Source of the DNA: Clostridiaceae bacterium
Lineage (GTDB): Bacteria > Bacillota > Clostridia > Saccharofermentanales > DTU023
Reading direction: 5' to 3'
Length of the DNA: 52,034 bases
Assembly (NCBI GenBank): GCA_012838795.1
Contig: DUOO01000051.1
Location: 1-52,034, forward strand
Positions within the stretch are counted from its first letter, which is position 1; each line of letters opens with the position of its first letter. Position numbers and translations under genes: made by a program. The notes beneath the pieces are model-generated. The model was not told the DNA's origin. It searched no databases and saw only the letters and a program-made list of their open reading frames with translations. Positions 21,909 to 39,599 of this stretch are shown piece by piece.

Positions 21909-22142
21909 ATGATTACAAGAAAGATGTTTCGTTCGATTGATGAACTGCAATTGGTACAATACTATGCAACTTTGTCCTCGGAAGATGTTGGTTTTCACTC
22001 AGAAGACGGCAAAGTAATTGTTGATGCCAAAAGTTTTATCGGCTTATTCGGTCTTGATTTTAGCAAACCGATTTTAGTAGTCAGTGAAGATGAAGATTTT
22101 CATAAAAAAATCGGAAACATAGGAGAAACTGTTGAAGAGTAG
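21909..22142 (+). CDS. HPr-like small protein without phosphorylatable histidine
   Basis: 77-residue protein matching the clostridial HPr-family pattern: DGKVIVDAKSFIGLFGLDFSKPILV is the second half of an HPr fold (the serine-containing KSxxGLxxL stretch). The region where HPr carries its active-site histidine reads YYATLSSEDVGFHSEDG and has no equivalent of the HARP motif, so it should not act as a sugar-PTS phosphocarrier. Such HPr-like proteins are common in Clostridia and of unknown function. AAGGAGA precedes the ATG. Its end overlaps the next gene by 11 bases, which implies co-expression. Confidence 0.65.
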   Translation: MITRKMFRSIDELQLVQYYATLSSEDVGFHSEDGKVIVDAKSFIGLFGLDFSKPILVVSEDEDFHKKIGNIGETVEE

Positions 22143-23304
22143 TATCTCACAACAAAAAATAATCCGATACAGTGCAATTATCATTATAGTTGCAATTCTG
22201 ATCGGATTAGTCATGCATTTTGCAAATATTACAGATCCGATTGTAGCGAATATAGTCGGATCTGTTGATGTTTCAAATAATAATAGTTCTGCGGATATAG
22301 AAGACAAAGTTGCTGCTGATTCCGATCCTGATTCAGATGATGACATTGGCTCTGATACTTATTCTAATCCCGATTCTGATTCGAACTTTGATGTCGATTC
22401 AAAGAAAACCAAATCAGACAACTCGGATTTGGCTGGAACGGACAATTCAGAAGAAAAAAATAAAATAGAATTTGAATCCGAACCTATTATCGACCCGGTT
22501 CCTTATTTTGAAAGTGGCGGTCAATATAAAGCGACAGATCCGGAAGAAATTGAATTGCTCAAACAGTACCCGGATGTTGTAGACATGGAATTCAGCGGTG
22601 ATACATATAAATTCAATCCTCTCGAGCAATGGCGCTATGATAAAATCATGGAAAAACATGATAAATTACCGCTTAACTTGCAAGAACTGCTTGTTAACAG
22701 ACCACAATCGGTACATTTTGTCTATAAGTATTTTGATTATTTAGAAAATCCGCAAAACTATGACCCTGACGCAAAATCCAATATAATTGATTTTTCCAAA
22801 GTAAAGTCAAAAAGCAAGTACCCTTATTATTCAAATTGGGACAGTACTTGGGGCTATCTGGATTACAGTATGGGCATACTTGCAACTTCAGGTTGCGGAC
22901 CGGTAAATTTTGCGATGCTTGTTTCCGGCATGAATCAAGATGAAACCATGACACCTGCCAAAGCGCGTGAATTTGCACGTAAAAACGGTTATGAAGCCAT
23001 GAACGGCAAAGGAACGTTATGGGATTTATTTACCAAAGGTGTCAATGATTTTGGTATAAAGTCTGAAATTTTAAATGTTCACAGACCGGACCTGATAAAA
23101 CAAGCTCTTCATGACGGGAAACCGGTTATTTTATTGATTAATCATCCGGATTTTACCAATGTCGGACATTTTATCTTACTACATGATATCGAGGGCGACA
23201 TGGTTAAACTTCAAGATAGCAACAGCATCAGCAATACGAATAAGATGTGGGATCTAATGGAATTGCTGCAACATTCAGTCAATGCATGGAGTTTCTATAA
23301 ATAA
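22132..23304 (+). CDS. Membrane-anchored C39-like peptidase
   Basis: 390-residue protein starting at TTG 22132, inside the end of the HPr-like gene, with AGGAGA 5 bases upstream. One N-terminal membrane helix (about residues 10-30) is followed by a low-complexity Asp/Ser-rich stalk (about 48-115), then a papain-like peptidase_C39_2 domain (about 225-388). Likely catalytic residues are C255 in ATSGCGPVNFAML and H346 in NVGHFILLHD, with the acidic/polar residue in KLQDSNS. The arrangement suggests an extracytoplasmic cysteine protease held on the membrane. Substrate unknown; no bacteriocin or ABC exporter domain is attached, so it is not a leader-peptide-cleaving transporter. Confidence 0.75.
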   Translation: MKSSISQQKIIRYSAIIIIVAILIGLVMHFANITDPIVANIVGSVDVSNNNSSADIEDKVAADSDPDSDDDIGSDTYSNPDSDSNFDVDSKKTKSDNSDLAGTDNSEEKNKIEFESEPIIDPVPYFESGGQYKATDPEEIELLKQYPDVVDMEFSGDTYKFNPLEQWRYDKIMEKHDKLPLNLQELLVNRPQSVHFVYKYFDYLENPQNYDPDAKSNIIDFSKVKSKSKYPYYSNWDSTWGYLDYSMGILATSGCGPVNFAMLVSGMNQDETMTPAKAREFARKNGYEAMNGKGTLWDLFTKGVNDFGIKSEILNVHRPDLIKQALHDGKPVILLINHPDFTNVGHFILLHDIEGDMVKLQDSNSISNTNKMWDLMELLQHSVNAWSFYK

Positions 23305-28632: not shown

Positions 28633-28747
28633 AATATTAATAATGCTCCTGTTTATAATAAAAATTTTTTGTTTGAATTACATTGTCTAATACTCAAAAT
28701 AGTATAAACTAGTTAATGGAATGAGTCTAATAAAAACGGAGAACTTA

Positions 28748-30094
28748 ATGACAAAATTTGTTTATTATTTAACATTGTTGATCGGCAAATTACAAAGAAT
28801 TAAAGGTGGCGGAACCAGCTTCCCGGGTAAAGTGGCATTGCGTATGAAACCGGATATTTTAAAAGAATTTAAAATTCCTGAACATCATGTTTTTATCAGC
28901 GGAACAAACGGTAAAACTTCTACGGCTAATTATTTGGCAGAAGTATTTCGTCAGACCGGTCAATCAGTTTGCCATAATGCAGCGGGAGCAAATCTTAAAC
29001 AGGGCATTGTATCATCATTGCTGCAAAATTCAGACAGCAGTTTGAGAATAAAATCAGATGTTTTGATTCTTGAAATTGATGAACTGACCATGCTGAATGT
29101 ATTTCCCGAACTGAATCCGCAACATTTGATATTAACCAATCTTTTTACCGATCAAATTGATCGCTTTGGAGACAAATGGCAACTGGCGACAACTTTGAGC
29201 GAAAAATTGCCACAAGGGATGACACTTTATGTTAACGGTGATGATCCTGTTCTGGTTTGGCTTACGCAGCAAATCAATCCGAAAAAGGTAGTATATTATG
29301 GTTTGACAGCTGAATATTCGATCGCTGATACCAAAACAAAATTTCAAACGGAAAAATGTCCTTATTGTAATTCCAAATTAAATTATGAGCAAAGGTACTA
29401 TGACAGCTTAGGAAAATTCAGTTGTGAATGTGGTTTCAAATCCCCGAATTTGGATTATATTGCAGAGGACATAGATTTGATTGAACAACAATTTACAGTT
29501 AATTATCAGACCTATCGCATGGCATATCCGCAACTATATTTAGTTTATAACATGCTGACTGTGGTAGCTTATGCTCAGGAGACAGGCATATCTATTGATT
29601 TAATTGCCAAAGTATTATCTGAACAAACAGAAACTGAAGGCAGATTTGAATTTTTGAGTTTTAATAAACATTCGGCATGGTTAAATTTAGTAAAAAATCC
29701 TGCAGGGATTAATCAGTCGCTGACTTATCTTGAACAACAATTAACTTCAGCCACAGAAAACAATCAGAAGATTAATCTGTTATTGGCATTTAATAATATG
29801 TATGTTGATGGGCTTGATTCAACCTGGTTGGAACAAGCTGATTTTGAATTGTTGCAATCAGATAATCTGGCAGCCATATATTTGGCGGGATCTCTGCAGA
29901 ATATCGTTTGTGAATTATTGAAAAAGAGCGGAATTCCTGAAAATATAATTGTTCTGATTCCGGAGCAGGAACAACTTACACAAGCAATCTCTGAAATGCG
30001 TCAAAGTGATTTACCCGGATATTTTTTGACAAACTTTACGATGTTGGAACCGGTAAGGACGAGTATTCTTAAATCGAGTAAAATGACCAAATAA
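28748..30094 (+). CDS. murT: Lipid II isoglutaminyl synthase subunit MurT
   Basis: 448-residue Mur-ligase-like protein which, with the glutaminase GatD, amidates the D-glutamate of lipid II in Gram-positives. The P-loop SGTNGKTST is at about 51-59. A four-cysteine zinc ribbon inserted in the central domain (CPYCNSKL...SCECGF, about 203-231) is characteristic of MurT, followed by the DUF1727 C-terminal region. The start is ATG 28748, with CGGAG 6 bases upstream; ATG 28721 lacks a site. gatD, almost always adjacent, is absent: the next gene downstream is the B12 surface protein. Either gatD is elsewhere or the partner is different. Confidence 0.92.
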   Translation: MTKFVYYLTLLIGKLQRIKGGGTSFPGKVALRMKPDILKEFKIPEHHVFISGTNGKTSTANYLAEVFRQTGQSVCHNAAGANLKQGIVSSLLQNSDSSLRIKSDVLILEIDELTMLNVFPELNPQHLILTNLFTDQIDRFGDKWQLATTLSEKLPQGMTLYVNGDDPVLVWLTQQINPKKVVYYGLTAEYSIADTKTKFQTEKCPYCNSKLNYEQRYYDSLGKFSCECGFKSPNLDYIAEDIDLIEQQFTVNYQTYRMAYPQLYLVYNMLTVVAYAQETGISIDLIAKVLSEQTETEGRFEFLSFNKHSAWLNLVKNPAGINQSLTYLEQQLTSATENNQKINLLLAFNNMYVDGLDSTWLEQADFELLQSDNLAAIYLAGSLQNIVCELLKKSGIPENIIVLIPEQEQLTQAISEMRQSDLPGYFLTNFTMLEPVRTSILKSSKMTK

Positions 30095-30114: not shown

Positions 30115-30143
30115 TTGACACCTGTTTTGCTTTAATTTAAGAT
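30115..30143 (+). promoter_or_regulatory. Candidate promoter of the cobalamin riboswitch transcript
   Basis: Consensus TTGACA (30115-30120), 17-base spacer, TAAGAT (30138-30143), about 55 bases before the aptamer. An overlapping GATAAAAT is an alternative -10. Confidence 0.5.
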
Positions 30144-30200
30144 AAAATAGTGTTATCTATATAAATAAAAATAGATAATTAATATAGAAAATTTAATATT

Positions 30201-30345
30201 TTCCGAAGATAAGGGAAACAGGTGTAAAACCTGTGCGGTGCCGCCGCCGTAAGTGAGGAGGAGTTTGCTGTTGATCCACTGAGTGATTGGGAAGGAAGCA
30301 AACAACGACCATTTTTTACTCATGAGCCGGAAGACCTCTTCGGAA
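30201..30345 (+). promoter_or_regulatory. Cobalamin (adenosylcobalamin) riboswitch aptamer
   Basis: The closing stem P1 is TTCCGAAG (30201-30208) with CTTCGGAA (30338-30345). Inside are the family's conserved elements in order: AAGGGAAACAGGTG, AAACCTGTGCGGTGCC, GCCGCCGTAAG, CCACTGAGTGATTGGGAAGG, and GAGCCGGAAGACCT. This is the B12 box architecture known to bind cobalamin and repress the downstream gene. The only gene it can control here is the surface protein at 30564, via the terminator at 30402-30432. Confidence 0.93.
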
Positions 30346-30401
30346 ACAAAGTAACAAAACAACGTGTCATTGTGGTTACGATTTGAAAAGAGCAAATACG
30401 G

Positions 30402-30432
30402 GCTGTAATTTTAGTTAATTACAGCTTTTTTA
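30402..30432 (+). terminator. Rho-independent terminator, riboswitch expression platform
   Basis: GCTGTAATT, loop TTAGTT, AATTACAGC, then a T-run: a perfect 9-bp stem 57 bases after the aptamer and 130 bases before the controlled start codon. The predicted logic is that cobalamin-bound aptamer favours termination. Confidence 0.85.
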
Positions 30433-30563
30433 TTGCAAAATTGCAACTGAATATCTGAATTGCAATAAATAAAAGAAAATCTTTTTTAATTTTTTTGCTA
30501 CTTCTCAAACATCTCACAATAACTAAAAGAGTAAATTTCTTAATTAAGAAGAAAGGATTTAAT

Positions 30564-33563
30564 ATGCAATTCAAGAAATCAAAATTTTTGGCATTTCTGC
30601 TGACGCTAATTATGATGCTTTCATTTATACCTAATCAGCCGAGTTTAGCAGATAATACTGAAGATGTTTTATCTGGAGAATCAGATGTAGATGAAGAATC
30701 AGATGCAGCCGGAGAATCGGAAACAACCGGAGAATCAGAAGCAGATGAAGAATCAGATGCAGCCGGAGAATCGGAAACAACCGGAGAATCAGATGCAGAT
30801 GAAGAATCAGATGCAGCCGGAGAATCGGAAACAACCGGAGAATCAGATGCAGATGAAGAATCAGATGCAGATGAAGAATCAGATGCAGCCGGAGAATCGG
30901 AAACAGCCGGAGAATCAGGAGCAGATGAAGAATCAGATGCAGCCGGAGAATCCTCAGAATCAGACGAGACCACGGATCAATCTTCAAAAGAACAGGTTCA
31001 GGCTGATGATATTGGTGAAGAGAACGATGCTGATCAAACAAATCAAGATGATCCTTTAGTTGAGCAGAAAAATGCTGTTCAAGCAATGAATGAAGCTGCG
31101 AAAGCTAATCCGGATAAAATCACAGCGACTTTAATTGTTGAAGGTTCGAAAATTCTTGAAACAAAAGCTGATCATGATAATGCTCATGAAGAGTGGTATA
31201 AATCAACCGAAACTATTGCCCCAAATAAAACAATAGTGGATTTTGTTAACGAAACTTTAGAAAATGCGGAAATAGAGATAGATTTAGTGATGTTGTTTGG
31301 CAATTGGTTACATTCAATTGAAGTATCAGGTAAACCGATCAACATCAGCGGAGAAACCAACGGTCCCTCTTCATCATGGATGTGGTATGTACAAGCAAAA
31401 GATGCAACCGATTATGAAATGGTAAGCAGTCTTATTCCGGACCCGGAGAAGTATCCTAATCCGAAAGATGATCCTGCCTATGTCAAAGCGGATGATATTA
31501 TTAAACTGAAATTTATCAATGATCCGCGTTATCCGTTTAATGTTCCGGAACAAAAGCCTGAAACACCGATAGAATTAAAAGATGATGCGGATGTTGTTGG
31601 CTGGACAGGCTATAGGGGTGACAAGCAAAACAAAACTCCGGTACGTAAGGTCTCAGAGATTCCTCAACCGACTCGAGAGTTAATCTGGGAATCAGTGATC
31701 GAAGAAAAAAATGAATGGGGTTTTCCGGCAACGATTTCCGATTTGTTAATCATTAATGGAAAAACTTATTATGCTGCATCCGATAAATTATTCTGTCTGA
31801 ATTCCGAGGGGCAGCTTGTTAAGACACTCAAACTTGCCGGCAGTATAGAGTATTTTTCCAGATTGATCTATAGTAACGGCTTGATAATTGTTCCACTGGA
31901 AGGCGGTGCAGTACAGGCGATTGATGCTGATGGAATGGTTAGCAGGTGGACGACTGGCAGTATTGATCAAATGGAAAAATGGATTCCTGGAGAAAATCCG
32001 GAAGATGACTGGACCAGGGAATATTACAAAGTGCAAAATCTCGGTACACCGTTTGTTGTTGGTGATATCGTTTATGTACCGATTACCGCAATCAAAGGTT
32101 TGGATACGGCAGGCGGAATTCTGCGAGCAATCAATCTGAAAACCGGTAAAACCGAATGGCAATATCAAGATAATGAAGCGGGATATTATTGGGGAGGTGC
32201 AACCGAAGTCGGTGGATATCTGATTATCGGTAATGATTCCGGTACTTTGCGAGCATTGGATAAAAATGGTGAATCGCAGGCAACCTATTCGGTTGGCGGA
32301 CAAATTCGTTCAACTATTGTCGCAGACGGTAATAATTTATACTTTACTACTAAAGACGGCAGATTCCATAGTATTGTTTTTGATCCCACAACCCAAACAT
32401 TTTCTAATCATCGAACTGTACAATTTGCAGTTGGCGGAACATCAACTCCGACAATTTATGCAGGAAAAGCTTATGTAGGTGGTGTCGGCGGTGATGGTGG
32501 TTGGGGAGCTCCCGGGGTTTTTGCCGTAATTAATTTAGCCGACATGAAAATTGAATTCCAGACTGAAGAGATAAGCGGTGAAGTGAAAAGTGCACCCTTA
32601 GTTCTATATGATGATTCCGGCAAGTTATATGTATATTTTACCGGTAATGCGGATCAAGGCTTGCTCTATGTCTATCATGCGGGAAAAGTTGAAATAGCGT
32701 ATCAGCCAACCCTTGATCAGGCGAATTATACTACAGCAACACCGATTGTTGATCAAGACGGAAATATTTTCTATACGACAGATGCCGGCGTGATTATTTC
32801 GTTGAAAAGCGAGAAATTGGATATTAATTATGAATTGCGCATCAACACGGACGGTAAGCCTCAAGCAATAAGCAGTATTAATTTAAAAGAAATTGATGAG
32901 ATTGGTTTATTGAAACATTCATTGCTAAAAATTTTAGAAAACACACAAAACATCTCAGCTTTGTATAGTGACATTATTGCTGCGGTGATTGGCGATAAGG
33001 ATTACTTCACATTCCAGACATTATTCGAAGGAGATATTACAGGTGATCCTTGGGTACAATTGGATCTGGAAATAAATCAGGAGTTGATGCCTTTGGCGGA
33101 AGACGAAGAATATAAGTTATATAAATTGGTTGGAAACAGTTTACAGGAAGTTGAGTTAAACCAAGCAGGTTCAATTAATAACCATAATAATTTTAATATT
33201 GCACCACAAGGCAGAACAATGATGATTTCTCCGATTTTCCTAACTCAGATCGCAGGACAGTTATTACCAGCGAATCAACCTAAATCAAGTAATCGGATTT
33301 CTTTCCGTCAAAAATTGAAAGACAACAGCACATATGTTTTAACAACTGCCAAAGTTATGGCATCTGATCCGACTAAGACTGAGCCGACCAAGACCGATCC
33401 AAGCACAACCGATCCTACCGCCAAAAAAGTCACTCCAAGTCAAGAGATCAAACAAATCAGCAAAACCGGTGAACAGAGCATGATGATTTCGAGTGCATTG
33501 TTGATGGTAGTTGTTGCTAGTTTATTGTATATTCGTAAAAAGAAAACGGAGGATATTAAATAA
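30564..33563 (+). CDS. Wall-anchored DUF4430 / beta-propeller protein under B12 control
   Basis: 999-residue secreted protein; predicted role is cobalamin capture at the cell surface. The start is ATG 30564, with AGAAAGGA upstream, giving a signal peptide (1-29, cleavage after SLA). Next come an acidic Ser/Glu/Asp/Ala repeat (about 40-135), a DUF4430 domain (about 181-320, with [12 protein letters not shown]), a PQQ-type beta-propeller (about 342-750; repeated blade motifs such as [19 protein letters not shown] and [12 protein letters not shown]), an unassigned domain (750-925), a Thr/Pro/Lys/Asp linker, and a sorting signal: ISKTGE, hydrophobic stretch, RKKK tail. DUF4430 is related to the C-terminal domain of transcobalamin/intrinsic factor. 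ISKTG departs from LPXTG, so sortase anchoring is likely but not certain. No transporter genes adjoin. Function is inferred from the riboswitch plus DUF4430; binding is not demonstrated. Confidence 0.8.
30702..30950 (+). repeat. 54-base tandem coding repeats (Ser/Glu/Asp-rich stalk)
   Basis: Units of 18 codons (consensus [18 protein letters not shown]) start at 30702, 30756, 30810, 30882 and partly 30936; the third has an extra DADEES. Near-identical DNA makes this a slippage-prone region, so stalk length probably varies between strains. Long antisense and out-of-frame ORFs here are artefacts of the repeat. Confidence 0.88.
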
Positions 33564-33634: not shown

Positions 33635-33683
33635 AAAGCCATCCTGAAAAAATTTATTAAATTTTGCTTAGGATGGCTTTTTT
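33635..33683 (+). terminator. Rho-independent terminator after the B12 surface protein
   Basis: AAAGCCATCCT...AGGATGGCTTTTTT, a 10-bp stem with a roughly 24-base loop and a T-run, about 70 bases past the stop codon. It makes the B12 gene a one-gene transcript. Confidence 0.8.
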
Positions 33684-33822
33684 AGTTGTGTTTTCGCACA
33701 TTTTTGCAAATAGGAGTTATTTTTTATAATATAATTGTGATAATATTAAAAATATAATAAATAAAGTATTAATCGCATAAGAAAATTATAGAATATATTT
33801 CTATTTTGAAAAGAGGTGTATC

Positions 33823-34791
33823 ATGCAAGAAAATAATCAAGGTACTTATCAAAATCCGGAAGAGAATGTCCAAAATTCTCAGATAGGTCAAAAACCGATG
33901 ACTGAGCAAACATTCCAGGCGGAACAATCTGCTCCTCAACCGATCAATCCTTATGAACCTTATCCGGATCAGTCTAATCAGGGACAACAATCTCAAGAAC
34001 AACCTCAACAAGGCCAACCCTATCAAGGTCAGCCTTACCAAGCTCAGCCATATCACGAACAAGTTTATCAAAGTCAGCCACATCAGGCTCAACCCTATCA
34101 AGGACAGCCCTATCAAGGACAGTCCTACCAAGAACAGCCCTATCAAGGACAACCCTATCAAGGACAGCCCTATCAAGGACAGCCCTATCAAGGTCAGCCT
34201 GTCCCGAATATTCCAAAACAGCCTAATCCGTTAGGCTTGATGTTTAAAAGTTTGTTTTCCAAACAACCATCAGATGTTTTAAAAGTAAAACAGAATTACT
34301 TGAGCATTTTCTTAATTATCGGTTTATCGATTTTCTTAGTTGGACTTAGCTTCGGTATAAAATCACATTTGTATTCCAGAAGTTTCGGCTGGTTCAGTTA
34401 TGGTTATAGCGGTAAAGGTTTCATATTCAGTTTCTTTATCAGTATCCTTTTCATGGCGTTAATAGAGGGAATCAAGCTGGGTTATGGAATTTTGATGCAG
34501 AATAAGAATAAACACATGAAAATGTCAAACAAAGTATTTTCTATACTGGAAGTGATGTCAGCATCAAGCATTATTCCTTTAGGTTTATACTTCTTGGCAT
34601 TTGTTTTTTCTTTGTTTTGGTCATACGGCTATAATTTATTATTGCAAACAGGTTTCACAGCAAGTATAGTTTATTTTATCAATGGTCTTAACATAAAATC
34701 CGGAGAAAAGAATGACAATATTTTCTTACAATTAGCTTTGATATCTGTTGCATACACATTATTCCGGTTAACACTTTATCTTTGTGTTTAA
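33823..34791 (+). CDS. Gln/Pro/Tyr-repeat membrane protein of unknown function
   Basis: 322-residue protein. The first ~130 residues are hydrophilic and low-complexity, with many PYQGQ pentapeptides (DNA unit TATCAAGGACAGCCC). The second half has about five hydrophobic segments, among them IFLIIGLSIFLVGLSFGI, FIFSFFISILFMALIEGI, IIPLGLYFLAFVFSLFW and LALISVAYTLFRLTLYL. No signal peptide; the repeat arm probably faces the cytoplasm, as in other Gram-positive proteins with a disordered Pro/Gln arm before a membrane domain. AGAGGTG precedes the ATG. Monocistronic, bounded by terminators. Function not recognised. Confidence 0.65.
   Translation: MQENNQGTYQNPEENVQNSQIGQKPMTEQTFQAEQSAPQPINPYEPYPDQSNQGQQSQEQPQQGQPYQGQPYQAQPYHEQVYQSQPHQAQPYQGQPYQGQSYQEQPYQGQPYQGQPYQGQPYQGQPVPNIPKQPNPLGLMFKSLFSKQPSDVLKVKQNYLSIFLIIGLSIFLVGLSFGIKSHLYSRSFGWFSYGYSGKGFIFSFFISILFMALIEGIKLGYGILMQNKNKHMKMSNKVFSILEVMSASSIIPLGLYFLAFVFSLFWSYGYNLLLQTGFTASIVYFINGLNIKSGEKNDNIFLQLALISVAYTLFRLTLYLCV
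34018..34199 (+). repeat. 15-base PYQGQ-coding tandem repeats
   Basis: About a dozen in-frame units of consensus TATCAAGGACAGCCC; the last ones are near-identical and hence recently expanded. Other frames stay open only because of the repeat. Confidence 0.85.
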
Positions 34792-34938: not shown

Positions 34939-35013
34939 GCTCCGATGGTCCAATGGATAAGACAGCAGTTTCCGGAGCTGCGGATACGGGTTCAATTCCT
35001 GTTCGGAGCACCA
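34939..35013 (+). tRNA. tRNA-Arg, anticodon CCG
   Basis: Cloverleaf: acceptor GCTCCGA/TCGGAGC, D-arm around GGTCCAATGGATAAGAC, anticodon stem GCAGT/GCTGC with loop TTCCGGA (anticodon CCG, reading CGG), T-arm ACGGG-TTCAATT-CCTGT, discriminator A and an encoded CCA. CGG is a rare arginine codon in this AT-rich genome. It stands alone with its own promoter and terminator. Confidence 0.95.
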
Positions 35014-35188: not shown

Positions 35189-36304
35189 ATGTTGACTATA
35201 AATAAATTAATGAGAGTTTGTATCTTGATACTAGTTATTAGTCTTGTTATATCATCTTGTTCTTGCTCATCAACTGCAAGAAAACTAAAAACGCTGGAAT
35301 CAATTCAGAAGTCAATTCTCGAAACTGAGTCCGCTTATGAACAAGAATCATCGTCAGATTTGCAAACAAAAAATGATCAAATTCAAACAGAAACCACAAG
35401 AGAATCTCAATCAGAAACTGTAATTCAATCTTCAACTCAAAACGAAACTCAAACTGCCGTCTCAACTGAAACTCAAACTCAAACTGCCGCCTCAACTGAA
35501 ACTCAAACAGATGCAACAAGTGCAGAAGATGAGCCTGAATTTCCGGAATTGCCTGAAGCACCGGAAGCCCTTTGGACCTATCTTGAACAAAATGAATGGA
35601 CGGATTATTCTCTGGAGGGAATGCCTAACATAACAACTTTGTTGCATTCGATTGGTGAAGGATTGTTGTTCGTTCAATTTTATAATGACACGAATTCTGA
35701 TGAAGCAAATTACGGATTTTACGATCCGTCATTTTCATCGCCTGACCTTTCGAATTTTCCGTTTATTGAGCTTAAAGATGGTACCTTATTATTAGAAAAA
35801 GATGAATTAAGTGCTGAAAGTATTGCTGATTTATTGCATCTGATAGTCGTTTATCGGACGTATCCGTTGATGGAATATGGTGAAGCAGATGAACCCATGT
35901 ACTCTTTGGTCGGTATTGCAGAAATACGTCATGCCATCAGAGGTGCTTTTTTGTTGGATGAAGATATAAATGAAGAAGTTATTGCAAAATTCTTTGATCA
36001 AAAAACCATATCTGCCACGTCAGATGAAAATTTAGTCAAAACCGGAGGAGTGGGCGGCATATGGGGTACACAATTTTATCTTCAAACTGTTCAAGTTGCA
36101 CCGGATGGAATTTTACGTGTAACAGGAAGTGTCATGAATTTTGAATTCAAAAATTTCGCTTATCCTTTTGAAGCCTATTTCGAACCGAATCCGTGGAGTG
36201 TTTGGGACGGATATTCTTTGATTACAATGAGATTAACAAACATAGATGCTGACGGAAATTGGCGGATTGATGAATCTGTTGTGGATATGTTGATGGATTA
36301 TTAA
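35189..36304 (+). CDS. Lipoprotein with Ser/Thr/Gln-rich stalk, unknown function
   Basis: 371-residue lipoprotein: the hydrophobic leader ends at lipobox VISSC, so the mature protein is lipid-anchored outside the membrane. A low-complexity stalk rich in Gln, Thr, Ser and Glu (ETQTQTAASTETQT type repeats) runs to about residue 110, followed by an acidic domain (about 125-371) that I do not recognise (PEALWTYLEQNEWTDYS at its start, GGVGGIWGTQFYLQTVQV in the middle). GGGAGG precedes the ATG. It is the first gene of a three-gene run with the TIR-FHA protein (24 bases on) and the Ser/Thr kinase. The context suggests a surface sensor or partner for the kinase's outer domain, but that is inference. 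Confidence 0.75.
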   Translation: MLTINKLMRVCILILVISLVISSCSCSSTARKLKTLESIQKSILETESAYEQESSSDLQTKNDQIQTETTRESQSETVIQSSTQNETQTAVSTETQTQTAASTETQTDATSAEDEPEFPELPEAPEALWTYLEQNEWTDYSLEGMPNITTLLHSIGEGLLFVQFYNDTNSDEANYGFYDPSFSSPDLSNFPFIELKDGTLLLEKDELSAESIADLLHLIVVYRTYPLMEYGEADEPMYSLVGIAEIRHAIRGAFLLDEDINEEVIAKFFDQKTISATSDENLVKTGGVGGIWGTQFYLQTVQVAPDGILRVTGSVMNFEFKNFAYPFEAYFEPNPWSVWDGYSLITMRLTNIDADGNWRIDESVVDMLMDY

Positions 36305-36327
36305 ATAGTATAATTGAGGTAAAGAGT

Positions 36328-37257
36328 ATGAAGAGGTGTGGAGCAGAACCTTATAAAGGTAACGAAAAATATATTTTTGTAAGTTATTCCCATAAAGATA
36401 AGAAATTCGTTTTCCCAATCATAGAACAAATGGCTAAAGACGGATATAGAATTTGGTATGATGAGGGAATTGATCCGGGATCCGAATGGCCTGAGATTAT
36501 AGCTGCTCATCTGAATGATTGTTTTTCATGTATTGCTTTTATTTCTGATAATTCGATAAACTCTCATAACTGCCGCAGAGAAATAAATTTTGCACTGCTT
36601 AAAAAGAAACGGTTCATTTCTGTTGTGCTGGAAGAAGTACAAATGTCGCTGGGTATGGAAATGCAACTATCTGTAACTCAATCTATTTTTAAATATAAAC
36701 ATTCGTCCGATCAGGAGTTTTTTGCAAAACTCTATGAAGCAAAATTTTTACATGAATGCTTAGGCAAACCGAATCCGGACATCATAGTTTCCAAGTCATC
36801 TGATTATGATGAAAATTTGAAAGATCTTTTCGGCAGGGATGATTTGATAAGAGAACCATTCAGTGACAGATGGTTTCTTGAAGCTGATCCTGCATATAAT
36901 ACTGAGCTGTCTGATGAGGATGCAGTTTTCTGCAATAACGGATCGGATCGGCAAAAAAATGTCTGGTTGATCCGATGTAAGACGAATGAGAAGATAGATC
37001 TGCCGCTTGGCGAGTTTAAATTAGGCAGGTCTGATACTATTAATGATTATGCTGTTATCGGTAACAGTGCCATAGGACGTTTGCATGCATTGATAAGAAG
37101 AAATCAGGAAAAGTCAGTGATTGTTGATTGCAGTTCAAAAAACAGAACTTTTCTCAATGCAAAAGCACTGGATCCGGAAATTGAATATGATTTACATGAT
37201 GGAGATTTTATCAGACTGGCAAATGAAGAATTTATTTTCAAACAAACTGAGAGCTGA
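36328..37257 (+). CDS. TIR domain - FHA domain protein
   Basis: 309-residue cytoplasmic protein. Residues 14-130 form a TIR_2 domain: YIFVSYSHKDKKFV, then GYRIWYDEGIDPGSEW (BB-loop region), CIAFISDNSINS, and NCRREINFAL, where E85 falls at the position of the catalytic glutamate of NAD-consuming TIR enzymes. Residues 212-305 form an FHA phosphothreonine-binding domain with G233-R234 (KLGRSD) and SSKNRTFLN. The usual SRxH motif reads GRLH, so its serine is lost, which may weaken or change phosphopeptide binding. The gene sits directly before a transmembrane Ser/Thr kinase. A plausible model is that kinase phosphorylation recruits or gates the TIR enzyme. NADase activity is not shown; the TIR could be purely a scaffold. 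Confidence 0.88.
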   Translation: MKRCGAEPYKGNEKYIFVSYSHKDKKFVFPIIEQMAKDGYRIWYDEGIDPGSEWPEIIAAHLNDCFSCIAFISDNSINSHNCRREINFALLKKKRFISVVLEEVQMSLGMEMQLSVTQSIFKYKHSSDQEFFAKLYEAKFLHECLGKPNPDIIVSKSSDYDENLKDLFGRDDLIREPFSDRWFLEADPAYNTELSDEDAVFCNNGSDRQKNVWLIRCKTNEKIDLPLGEFKLGRSDTINDYAVIGNSAIGRLHALIRRNQEKSVIVDCSSKNRTFLNAKALDPEIEYDLHDGDFIRLANEEFIFKQTES

Positions 37258-37301
37258 TATTGAGAATAGATAAGGGTAATAAGTTAAGGAGTGGAATAAA
37301 C

Positions 37302-39599
37302 ATGAATTATTGTAATTTTTGCATGAATCCTATAGAAGACAACGAAATAGAATGTTCTTTTTGCGGAAAGGGTGTTACGAATCAAGTATTTGCGCATCAT
37401 TTGACACCCGGCACGGTTTTGAACAAAAAATATTACGTCGGAGCTTCACTTGGCGAAGGAGGATTCGGGATTACTTATATAGGTCGTGATATCACCCTTG
37501 ACCTCAAAGTGGCTATCAAGGAGTACTATCCTGCCGGTTATGTGAATCGTAATAACACGGTATCGCTTGATGTCCAGGATAGTGAAACTCAAAGTCGCAA
37601 GGATTTTTTTGTGCAAGGTAAAACAAGATTTCTGGAAGAAGCCAGAATCCTGGCTAAATTTTCAGGTGAACCGGGTATTGTCAATGTAAGAGATTTTTTT
37701 GAAGAAAACAATACGGCATACATTGTCATGGAATACCTGGAAGGTGAAACGTTAAAAGAGTACCTGAAAGTAAAAAAAGTATTAACTCCTGAACAAACTT
37801 TGAACTTGATGATGCCGATAATGTTATCGCTTAAGGAAGTTCATAAACAAGGCTTGATCCATCGCGATATCAGTCCTGACAATATTATGCTCGTTGGAAA
37901 CAATGTTAAACTATTGGATTTCGGTTCTGCCCGGAATGTTACAGCTATTGCCAACAGAAGTCTTTCAGTGATGCTGAAACCGGGATATGCTCCGGAGGAA
38001 CAATACCGCAGCAAAGGCAATCAGGGCGCTTGGACAGATGTATATGCCATTTGTGCAACCATGTATAAATGCATCACGGGAATAACACCTGATGACTCCA
38101 CTCAAAGAGTATATAAAGATGAGTTGAAAACTCCTACAGCACTTGGAATCGTAATTAATCCCGATATTGAACATGCCCTGATGAAGGGTCTGGCTATACT
38201 GCAAATAGATCGTTATCAAAACATAGAACAATTACTTGACGGGTTCCGGGGAATTGACAGAAAAATCAATCAAGATGATAAAATTACCGTGAATCCGGAA
38301 TACATCGTATCTGAAGATGACCAAGAAACACAATATATTGATCCGGGCAAGTCTGCTCCGGAAACAGAAGAAACCGAAGCAGCAATTCATGAAACTTCTT
38401 CAGCTGCATATAATCTTACTTCAAATGCTGAACATGTTAAACCGGAATCAATATCTGAAACTAAACCTAAGAAAAAACGAGTCCGTGTTATTGCAGTCTC
38501 TACGGTTTTGCTGATCGTTGTAATTGTTGGTATTTTTATACTTATAAACAAGGAAGTTCCCACAGCACCGGAAAAAGAGGAAGTTCAAACAGCTCCGGAA
38601 ACAGATAGAGTTCCAACAGTTCCGGAAAAAGAGAAAATTCAAACAGTTCCGGAAACAGATAGAGTTCAAACTGCTCCGGAAACAGATCAGGAAAACAAGA
38701 AAGAAATCACAATTATCTCAACTCCGGATGAAAATCTTGATCAAGAGATGATCGGAAAAGTTGAGAAAGAGGAACAGTCCTTTTCCGGTGATTTAAGCTA
38801 CACTGTCAGATTTCCGATTGCTGCAAAAGATAACAGTATGAATCTTGATGATGCAGAAACAACCGCATTTGCCGGTTTCGTTGATGATAAGAATAATAAG
38901 GTTGAAGGGGTTGTTACTACCTATAACATTAATGATGATCAATCAATTACGACCTATAATGGTCAGTGGAAAACTGATTCTGCAAGCAATATCTTAATGT
39001 CCGATATGCTCCATGATGGCATTTTTACCGGGTATTCGGTTAATAATTACGATGATTCCACATCCGTGTATTCCTTCGATAATTCGAATATAGGGGCATA
39101 TGTCGGTTTCTCTGGTGATTCTATTGATTATCTTAGTGATATAACAAAATACGATAAGAAAGTGAAAATTAAAAGCTCCTTAGATAATAAAAAGAAAAAT
39201 GATCCTCTTCAATTTTTATTTGAATTCAAAACAACCTCCGGCCACAAATTAGAGATTGATCTCTGTTTTGATGGGCACGACGGAAATTTATCCGGCCTGG
39301 ATTTTACTGAGTTAAATGATACTAATATTGTTATTGGAGAGGCGTCCTGGGAAAAAGCCGGTCCAAATTCATTATTGAGGAAGGATACGATAATAAATAT
39401 TAATGAATTGAGCCCGGATAAGTTCAAGGAAATTACGGATGATGTGATTGACAAAAAATTTGTTAATTTAAGTGTGAGTAAATCAAATTTTGTCAGTGAA
39501 AATTGGGACGAATTTCTAGAGAAAGGACAGCCGGAAATTGAATTCATGTTGTATATACTGCGATGCATTTACAGCGAGGAAGCAATAGAACTCAAATAA
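37302..39599 (+). CDS. Zinc-ribbon transmembrane Ser/Thr protein kinase
   Basis: 765-residue Hanks-type kinase. Residues 1-25 hold a CxxC...CxxC zinc ribbon (C4, C7, C18, C21). The kinase domain (about 42-330) has glycine loop GEGGFG (51-56), K73 in VAIKEYYP, catalytic loop HRDISPDN (187-194) and DFG at 206-208, so it should be active. A linker leads to one membrane helix (about 393-415), then Pro/Glu/Thr repeats (VQTAPETDR type) and an unassigned extracellular domain of about 300 residues rather than PASTA repeats. The start is ATG 37302, with AAGGAG 10 bases upstream; an in-frame TTG at 37260 lies just after the previous stop and is less likely. It is operonic with the TIR-FHA protein, whose FHA domain is a natural phospho-substrate reader. 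Confidence 0.88.
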   Translation: MNYCNFCMNPIEDNEIECSFCGKGVTNQVFAHHLTPGTVLNKKYYVGASLGEGGFGITYIGRDITLDLKVAIKEYYPAGYVNRNNTVSLDVQDSETQSRKDFFVQGKTRFLEEARILAKFSGEPGIVNVRDFFEENNTAYIVMEYLEGETLKEYLKVKKVLTPEQTLNLMMPIMLSLKEVHKQGLIHRDISPDNIMLVGNNVKLLDFGSARNVTAIANRSLSVMLKPGYAPEEQYRSKGNQGAWTDVYAICATMYKCITGITPDDSTQRVYKDELKTPTALGIVINPDIEHALMKGLAILQIDRYQNIEQLLDGFRGIDRKINQDDKITVNPEYIVSEDDQETQYIDPGKSAPETEETEAAIHETSSAAYNLTSNAEHVKPESISETKPKKKRVRVIAVSTVLLIVVIVGIFILINKEVPTAPEKEEVQTAPETDRVPTVPEKEKIQTVPETDRVQTAPETDQENKKEITIISTPDENLDQEMIGKVEKEEQSFSGDLSYTVRFPIAAKDNSMNLDDAETTAFAGFVDDKNNKVEGVVTTYNINDDQSITTYNGQWKTDSASNILMSDMLHDGIFTGYSVNNYDDSTSVYSFDNSNIGAYVGFSGDSIDYLSDITKYDKKVKIKSSLDNKKKNDPLQFLFEFKTTSGHKLEIDLCFDGHDGNLSGLDFTELNDTNIVIGEASWEKAGPNSLLRKDTIININELSPDKFKEITDDVIDKKFVNLSVSKSNFVSENWDEFLEKGQPEIEFMLYILRCIYSEEAIELK

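Follow-up and report, generated by a model that had tools for sequence, protein, structure and literature searches.

A 999-aa exported protein encoded by a member of the Clostridiaceae probably serves, in our judgement, to capture corrinoids outside the cell for an uptake system of the ECF/CbrT type in its B12-dependent host, which belongs to the Clostridia. The window, i.e. the whole stretch of 52,034 nucleotides analysed here, is an entire contig (C35) from a genome of 2.09 Mb that is split over 63 contigs, and the features of the gene are collected in Table 1. A role in corrinoid uptake is well supported by genomic context, namely by the linkage of such genes to cobalamin riboswitches and by the operon of the relatives, which encodes a DUF4430 lipoprotein, an ECF module and a CbrT-like S component. 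In favour of capture we count the riboswitch score, the linkage within the family, the operon, the CbrT match, the co-occurrence with EcfS, the loci found class-wide, the presence of NrdJ and MetH without CbiC, and an independent prediction from 2007; the points counted against it are given below with the features they concern. An earlier note, made from the sequence of this locus, had proposed corrinoid scavenging by a wall-anchored protein of distinct architecture with a propeller comparable to BtuG. Riboswitch control, export, probable anchoring and, through the linkage to the riboswitch and ECF-CbrT, the uptake role are borne out by our analysis, but the BtuG-type propeller and the novelty of the architecture are not.

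Table 1. Features of the gene for the 999-aa protein, its leader and its 3' end (positions in the window)
Feature	Position	Strand	Basis
Promoter-like site TTGACA-17-TAAGAT	30115..30143	+	Consensus scan; conserved in the leaders of two relatives
Cobalamin riboswitch aptamer	30188..30357	+	Rfam RF00174, 68.6 bits, E 6.7e-15, model 1-189
Riboswitch intrinsic terminator	30400..30433	+	Stem 30400-30427, then T run
CDS, exported surface protein, 999 aa	30564..33563	+	ORF and translation, ATG 30564
Predicted signal peptide, residues about 1-30	30564..30653	+	KKSK, hydrophobic core, end near LAD
Acidic repeat array	30675..30952	+	TRF period 18/54; 5.1 copies of 54-bp unit
DUF4430-like (transcobalamin C-terminal type) domain, residues 176-345	31089..31598	+	Alignment to relatives; hhalign
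PQQ-type eight-bladed beta-propeller (modelled), residues 346-762	31599..32849	+	PQQ_2; AlphaFold2 model; fold matches
C-terminal domain, residues about 763-935	32850..33368	+	No Pfam match besides anchor; kept in genus relatives
Thr/Pro/Lys linker	33369..33449	+	Sequence
Putative cell-wall sorting signal: ISKTGE, hydrophobic stretch, RKKK tail	33450..33560	+	Sequence; Gram_pos_anchor below cut-off
Hairpin and T run 3' of gene, likely transcription end	33635..33684 (about)	+	Read by eye: AAAGCCATCCT ... AGGATGGCTTTTTT

The complete cobalamin riboswitch that the earlier note had recognised was recovered by a covariance-model search as a full-length match to RF00174, scoring 68.6 bits where the gathering threshold is 31.5. 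The promoter-like site starts 73 nt 5' of the aptamer, the number of such sites returned by the consensus scan across the region not exceeding that expected by chance. The switch also has its own terminator, as had been claimed, and when the leaders of two relatives were compared with that of the window the stem arms proved invariant whereas the loop differs. Since most relatives carry comparable terminators 40-78 nt 3' of their aptamers, this hairpin and its conservation fit a transcriptional OFF switch, a mode of action predicted from the terminator architecture. A candidate antiterminator pairing between GGUUAC (30374) and GUAAUU (30405), for which six pairs are possible, is not claimed, as the forced fold was weak (-6.4 vs -20.2 kcal/mol); as all three leaders share the same pairing bases, covariation cannot speak for it. 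The coding sequence begins 206 nt from the aptamer and is the only gene under its control, in agreement with the first reading, as the next CDS starts only at 33823, beyond the hairpin and T run at the 3' end.

The 999-aa protein, of which full-length relatives about 80% identical exist (L006 and L007), is probably exported and anchored at the surface, judging from its signal peptide and C-terminus. The sorting signal had been described in the earlier note, and the hydrophobic stretch after ISKTGE, the basic tail and a sortase encoded in the genome agree with it, but the motif is not LPXTG, and Gram_pos_anchor stayed below its cut-off of 20 (16.5 bits on the protein, 18.9 bits on the C-terminal part). 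We count this non-canonical motif against a role in capture. A second surface protein of the genome ends in VSKTGE followed by a membrane stretch and a basic tail, which suggests that the sortase of this organism uses a non-LPXTG motif; this protein (G000:C49:1-1095, L116) carries repeated Cna_B-like units. The sorting motifs of relatives, such as LPATGE, IPPTGE, VPTTGE and similar, are of the LPXTG type. A flexible acidic stalk had also been described. Acidic repeats are indeed present, residues 31-165 having a net charge of -56, but the array is not close to the wall: it lies between the signal peptide and the DUF4430 domain. The sorting signal itself follows a short Thr/Pro linker, which in turn comes after a domain without family match. 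A similar acidic Asp/Ser stretch occurs in a Peptidase_C39-like protein encoded elsewhere in the window (22132-23304).

Segment 176-345 is a divergent DUF4430 domain that is recognised through its relatives. The domain had been assigned in the first reading, and its homology stands, but not by direct detection: PF14478 (DUF4430) gave no Pfam match at E 1 in the window protein, while it was matched by 10 of 14 aligned homologous segments (best 3.8e-10), and a profile built from the window clade only aligns to DUF4430 lipoproteins with an hhalign probability of 67% (E 5e-5). This divergence is counted against a role in capture. Transcobalamin and intrinsic factor share the DUF4430-type beta-grasp domain, although there it is paired with an alpha/alpha toroid and in the window protein with a propeller. 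In transcobalamin the equivalent domain works together with that toroid, and its absence from the window protein is a further point that we set against corrinoid capture. In a search of the PDB with the DUF4430 profile transcobalamin was not found. Toroid-like proteins are encoded in some related operons (L044, L096, L100), all of them below the Pfam cut-off.

The earlier note had suggested counting how often a cobalamin riboswitch precedes genes of this kind. Propeller relatives, counted at about E 1e-12 or better with weaker matches left out, are present in 21 of 38 genomes of the family, and in 16 of 20 relatives' loci the gene is immediately preceded, on its own strand, by a cobalamin riboswitch at a distance of about 0-210 nt. 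Of the remaining four loci, three break off at a contig end within the gene and L055 lacks a riboswitch. In genome G036 the riboswitch is found at C88:3075-3247 and the N-terminus of the ORF just below 2989. With the window and G036 included, 18 of the 19 family loci with visible upstream DNA are thus led by a riboswitch. The family genomes contain 60 cobalamin riboswitches above cut-off in about 64.5 Mb, a density from which the chance linkage for one gene comes to about 1e-4, and in 10 genomes the riboswitch of the propeller gene is the sole one of its class. In a class-wide sample of 391 genomes searched at E 1e-20, relatives were found in 22, the window genome included; among 20 further class-wide loci, 11 have a riboswitch, 12 have ECF genes and 16 have at least one of both.

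The relatives' operon usually continues with genes for a DUF4430 lipoprotein, EcfT, a fused EcfAA and EcfS. The only significant PDB match of the EcfS profile is 6fnp_A (E 1.1e-12; the next has E 1.5), from the structure of ECF-CbrT, for which cobalamin transport is proven (PMC5997447). EcfS occurs in 19 of 21 family genomes with the propeller vs 4 of 17 without it (Fisher p 4e-5, a statistic that ignores kinship). In the window genome a DUF4430 lipoprotein and an ECF set are encoded on another contig (C15), unlinked from the propeller gene, and the S component of this partner operon is, by sequence, homologous to CbrT. The C15 operon has no riboswitch above threshold, which we count, together with the missing linkage, against a role in capture. 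ECF-CbrT of Lactobacillus delbrueckii (PDB 6FNP), whose S component is related in sequence to that of C15, differs in having been described without an extracellular capture protein.

The host appears to need B12. Its genome encodes a class II, B12-dependent NrdJ (C40) and a MetH with a B12-binding domain, and CbiC, an enzyme of ring synthesis, was not found in it. The second cobalamin riboswitch of the genome (G000:C31:51604-51773; L002, L004) precedes class III NrdD/NrdG, and together with NrdJ this is what would be expected of a B12-controlled choice between ribonucleotide reductases. A FecCD match considered as BtuC was weak and partial (29.6 bits vs a cut-off of 26.5) and was not counted.

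According to the mechanism we propose, scarcity of cobalamin in the cell would keep the riboswitch terminator from forming, so that the protein is made, while plentiful B12 would lead to an early end of transcription. The protein would be exported and anchored by sortase, and its DUF4430 domain, its propeller or both would bind extracellular B12 or other corrinoids. From there the ligand may be handed to the two partners encoded on C15, the DUF4430 lipoprotein and the ECF transporter with its CbrT-like S component.

Which domain would hold the corrinoid depends on the nature of the propeller. A PQQ-type beta-propeller had been recognised in the sequence and is confirmed by PQQ_2 (47 bits, cut-off 27.6). 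An AlphaFold2 model from a four-row alignment (pLDDT 78.2, pTM 0.81) has about 32 strands; an earlier model of the DUF4430 domain with the propeller, from a three-row alignment, reached a pLDDT of 45 and was set aside. The best fold matches of the propeller model are Cake8, YxaL and BamB (Z 34-37, 2.0-2.3 A), and the best-matching propellers, YxaL, BamB, Cake8 and Tako8, are eight-bladed. Sequence profiles likewise match BamB, Cake and YxaL, and BtuG chains are absent among the listed profile and fold matches. By this model the propeller is of the eight-bladed BamB/YxaL type. BamB and YxaL are not known to bind B12, and this is counted against a role in capture. The propeller of BtuG2 is seven-bladed (PMC6143338, PMC10404256), so the comparison with BtuG made in the earlier note is not upheld by the predicted structure. 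The propeller may nevertheless work like BtuG. BtuG2 of Bacteroides thetaiotaomicron (PDB 3DSM) is also a surface-held beta-propeller from an uptake locus under a cobalamin riboswitch, but it is an outer-membrane lipoprotein that works with BtuB, whereas the window protein is predicted to be wall-anchored and to have an ECF transporter as partner. Orthology with BtuG, or gain of a binder of BtuG type from Bacteroidota, is hardly credible for this propeller: both indeed stand in riboswitch-controlled B12 loci (PMC6143338), but blade number and the listed profile matches speak against it, and BtuG homologues have been reported in Bacteroidetes only (PMC6143338).

More tentatively, we suggest that the eight-bladed PQQ-type propeller might itself be the main corrinoid binder, a Gram-positive invention independent of and parallel to BtuG, from which the ligand would pass to DUF4430 lipoproteins and on to a CbrT-type ECF transporter, while the DUF4430 fusion and the anchor are freely swapped. 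Alternatively, and somewhat doubtfully, corrinoid would be bound by the DUF4430 domains only, with the propeller as a tether or spacer to wall polysaccharide or partners. A tethering role for extra domains was proposed by Burroughs et al. (PMC1796856), and the surface-retention modules of the relatives are many: besides sortase-type signals and a C-terminal membrane stretch they include a lipobox (L053, L054), SLH (L091, L096), CWB2 (L089) and dockerin (L055, L108), a variety which indicates that being held at the surface matters. However, with SLH, CWB2, dockerin, LPXTG or lipobox tethers already standing beside it, a propeller serving the same end is harder to explain, and it is the propeller, not the fused DUF4430 domain, that is the constant part, as the riboswitch-led loci L045-L048 have a propeller without fused DUF4430.

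Two further explanations concern the substrate and the function as a whole. Import of cobalt, a corrinoid precursor or another metabolite instead of B12 would agree with the fact that cobalt transporters are also found under cobalamin riboswitches (PMC11477304) and with EcfT matching the CbiQ family, which it does only at cut-off. We consider it very unlikely in view of the CbrT-like S component; reading of the operons revealed no recognisable CbiM/CbiN gene, and CbiC was not detected in the host; cobinamide uptake would be compatible with the proposed system, since CbrT also takes cobinamide (PMC5997447). Still less probable is that B12 represses a surface protein whose role, as a PQQ dehydrogenase-like enzyme or in adhesion, is unrelated to uptake. 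The PQQ_2 family fold and the adhesin-like acidic repeats could be read in this way, but the linkage to the riboswitch and to a CbrT-type ECF operon is strict, and the best sequence and fold matches are of the non-catalytic BamB/YxaL type.

The combination of domains is not a new architecture, as had been supposed in the earlier note. Surface proteins with an SLBB (DUF4430-type, transcobalamin-like) domain and a beta-propeller were described in Clostridium by Burroughs et al. (2007; PMC1796856), who predicted that they scavenge B12, and the window protein is therefore a further instance of a predicted kind, with a transcobalamin C-terminal-type domain fused to a propeller. Members of their clade bear signal peptides and in some cases Gram-positive anchors, and a second SLBB protein is often present; SLBB proteins generally lie in CbiO/CbiQ operons, in hosts that usually lack key enzymes of B12 synthesis (PMC1796856). 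The window gene differs from these cases in standing alone with its own riboswitch and in its divergent DUF4430 domain, and here a cobalamin riboswitch is demonstrated and the S component is tied to CbrT. What is added to the 2007 work is the riboswitch linkage (which may have been reported before), the tie to CbrT, the number of blades and the range of anchor types. Among the papers searched, two join DUF4430 and cobalamin, one on vertebrate B12 binders and one on a Lacticaseibacillus proteome, and no test of bacterial B12 uptake is apparent in either. The strong linkage to riboswitch and transporter makes the computational prediction of 2007 directly testable. Little is known of how Gram-positive anaerobes capture B12 before it reaches the membrane, and the description of ECF-CbrT includes no surface binder. 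Should the propeller bind corrinoids, capture by a propeller would have arisen independently of BtuG, and the transcobalamin-type domain known from animals would have living bacterial relatives in working B12 import.

Some relatives stand in other surroundings. On the Vescimonas plasmid pMM35_02 (L115), genes for a terpene cyclase-like (toroid) protein, MoxR, DUF58 and a transglutaminase precede that of a propeller-dockerin protein, and in L055 a similar transglutaminase-like gene precedes such a protein and is followed further downstream by ECF genes and one that is CobT-like; the two represent a second locus type. On an IMG/VR contig a DUF4430-propeller-dockerin gene (L108:4362-6266) lies beside phage structural-like genes; it may belong to host DNA at the border of a prophage, or a phage may carry it.

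In the window, a gene for a MurT-type Mur ligase (28721-30094) is located directly 5' of the riboswitch on the same strand. Downstream of the propeller gene, 33823-34791 encodes a 322-aa membrane protein without Pfam match that has 15-bp tandem repeats (PYQGQ) at 34009-34199. Beside a tRNA-Arg (34939-35013), the region 35189-39599 holds a lipoprotein-like ORF, a protein combining TIR and FHA (36328-37257) and a Ser/Thr kinase (37260-39599), which PADLOC matched to kinases of the PD-T4-6 type; this is possibly a signalling or defence cluster.
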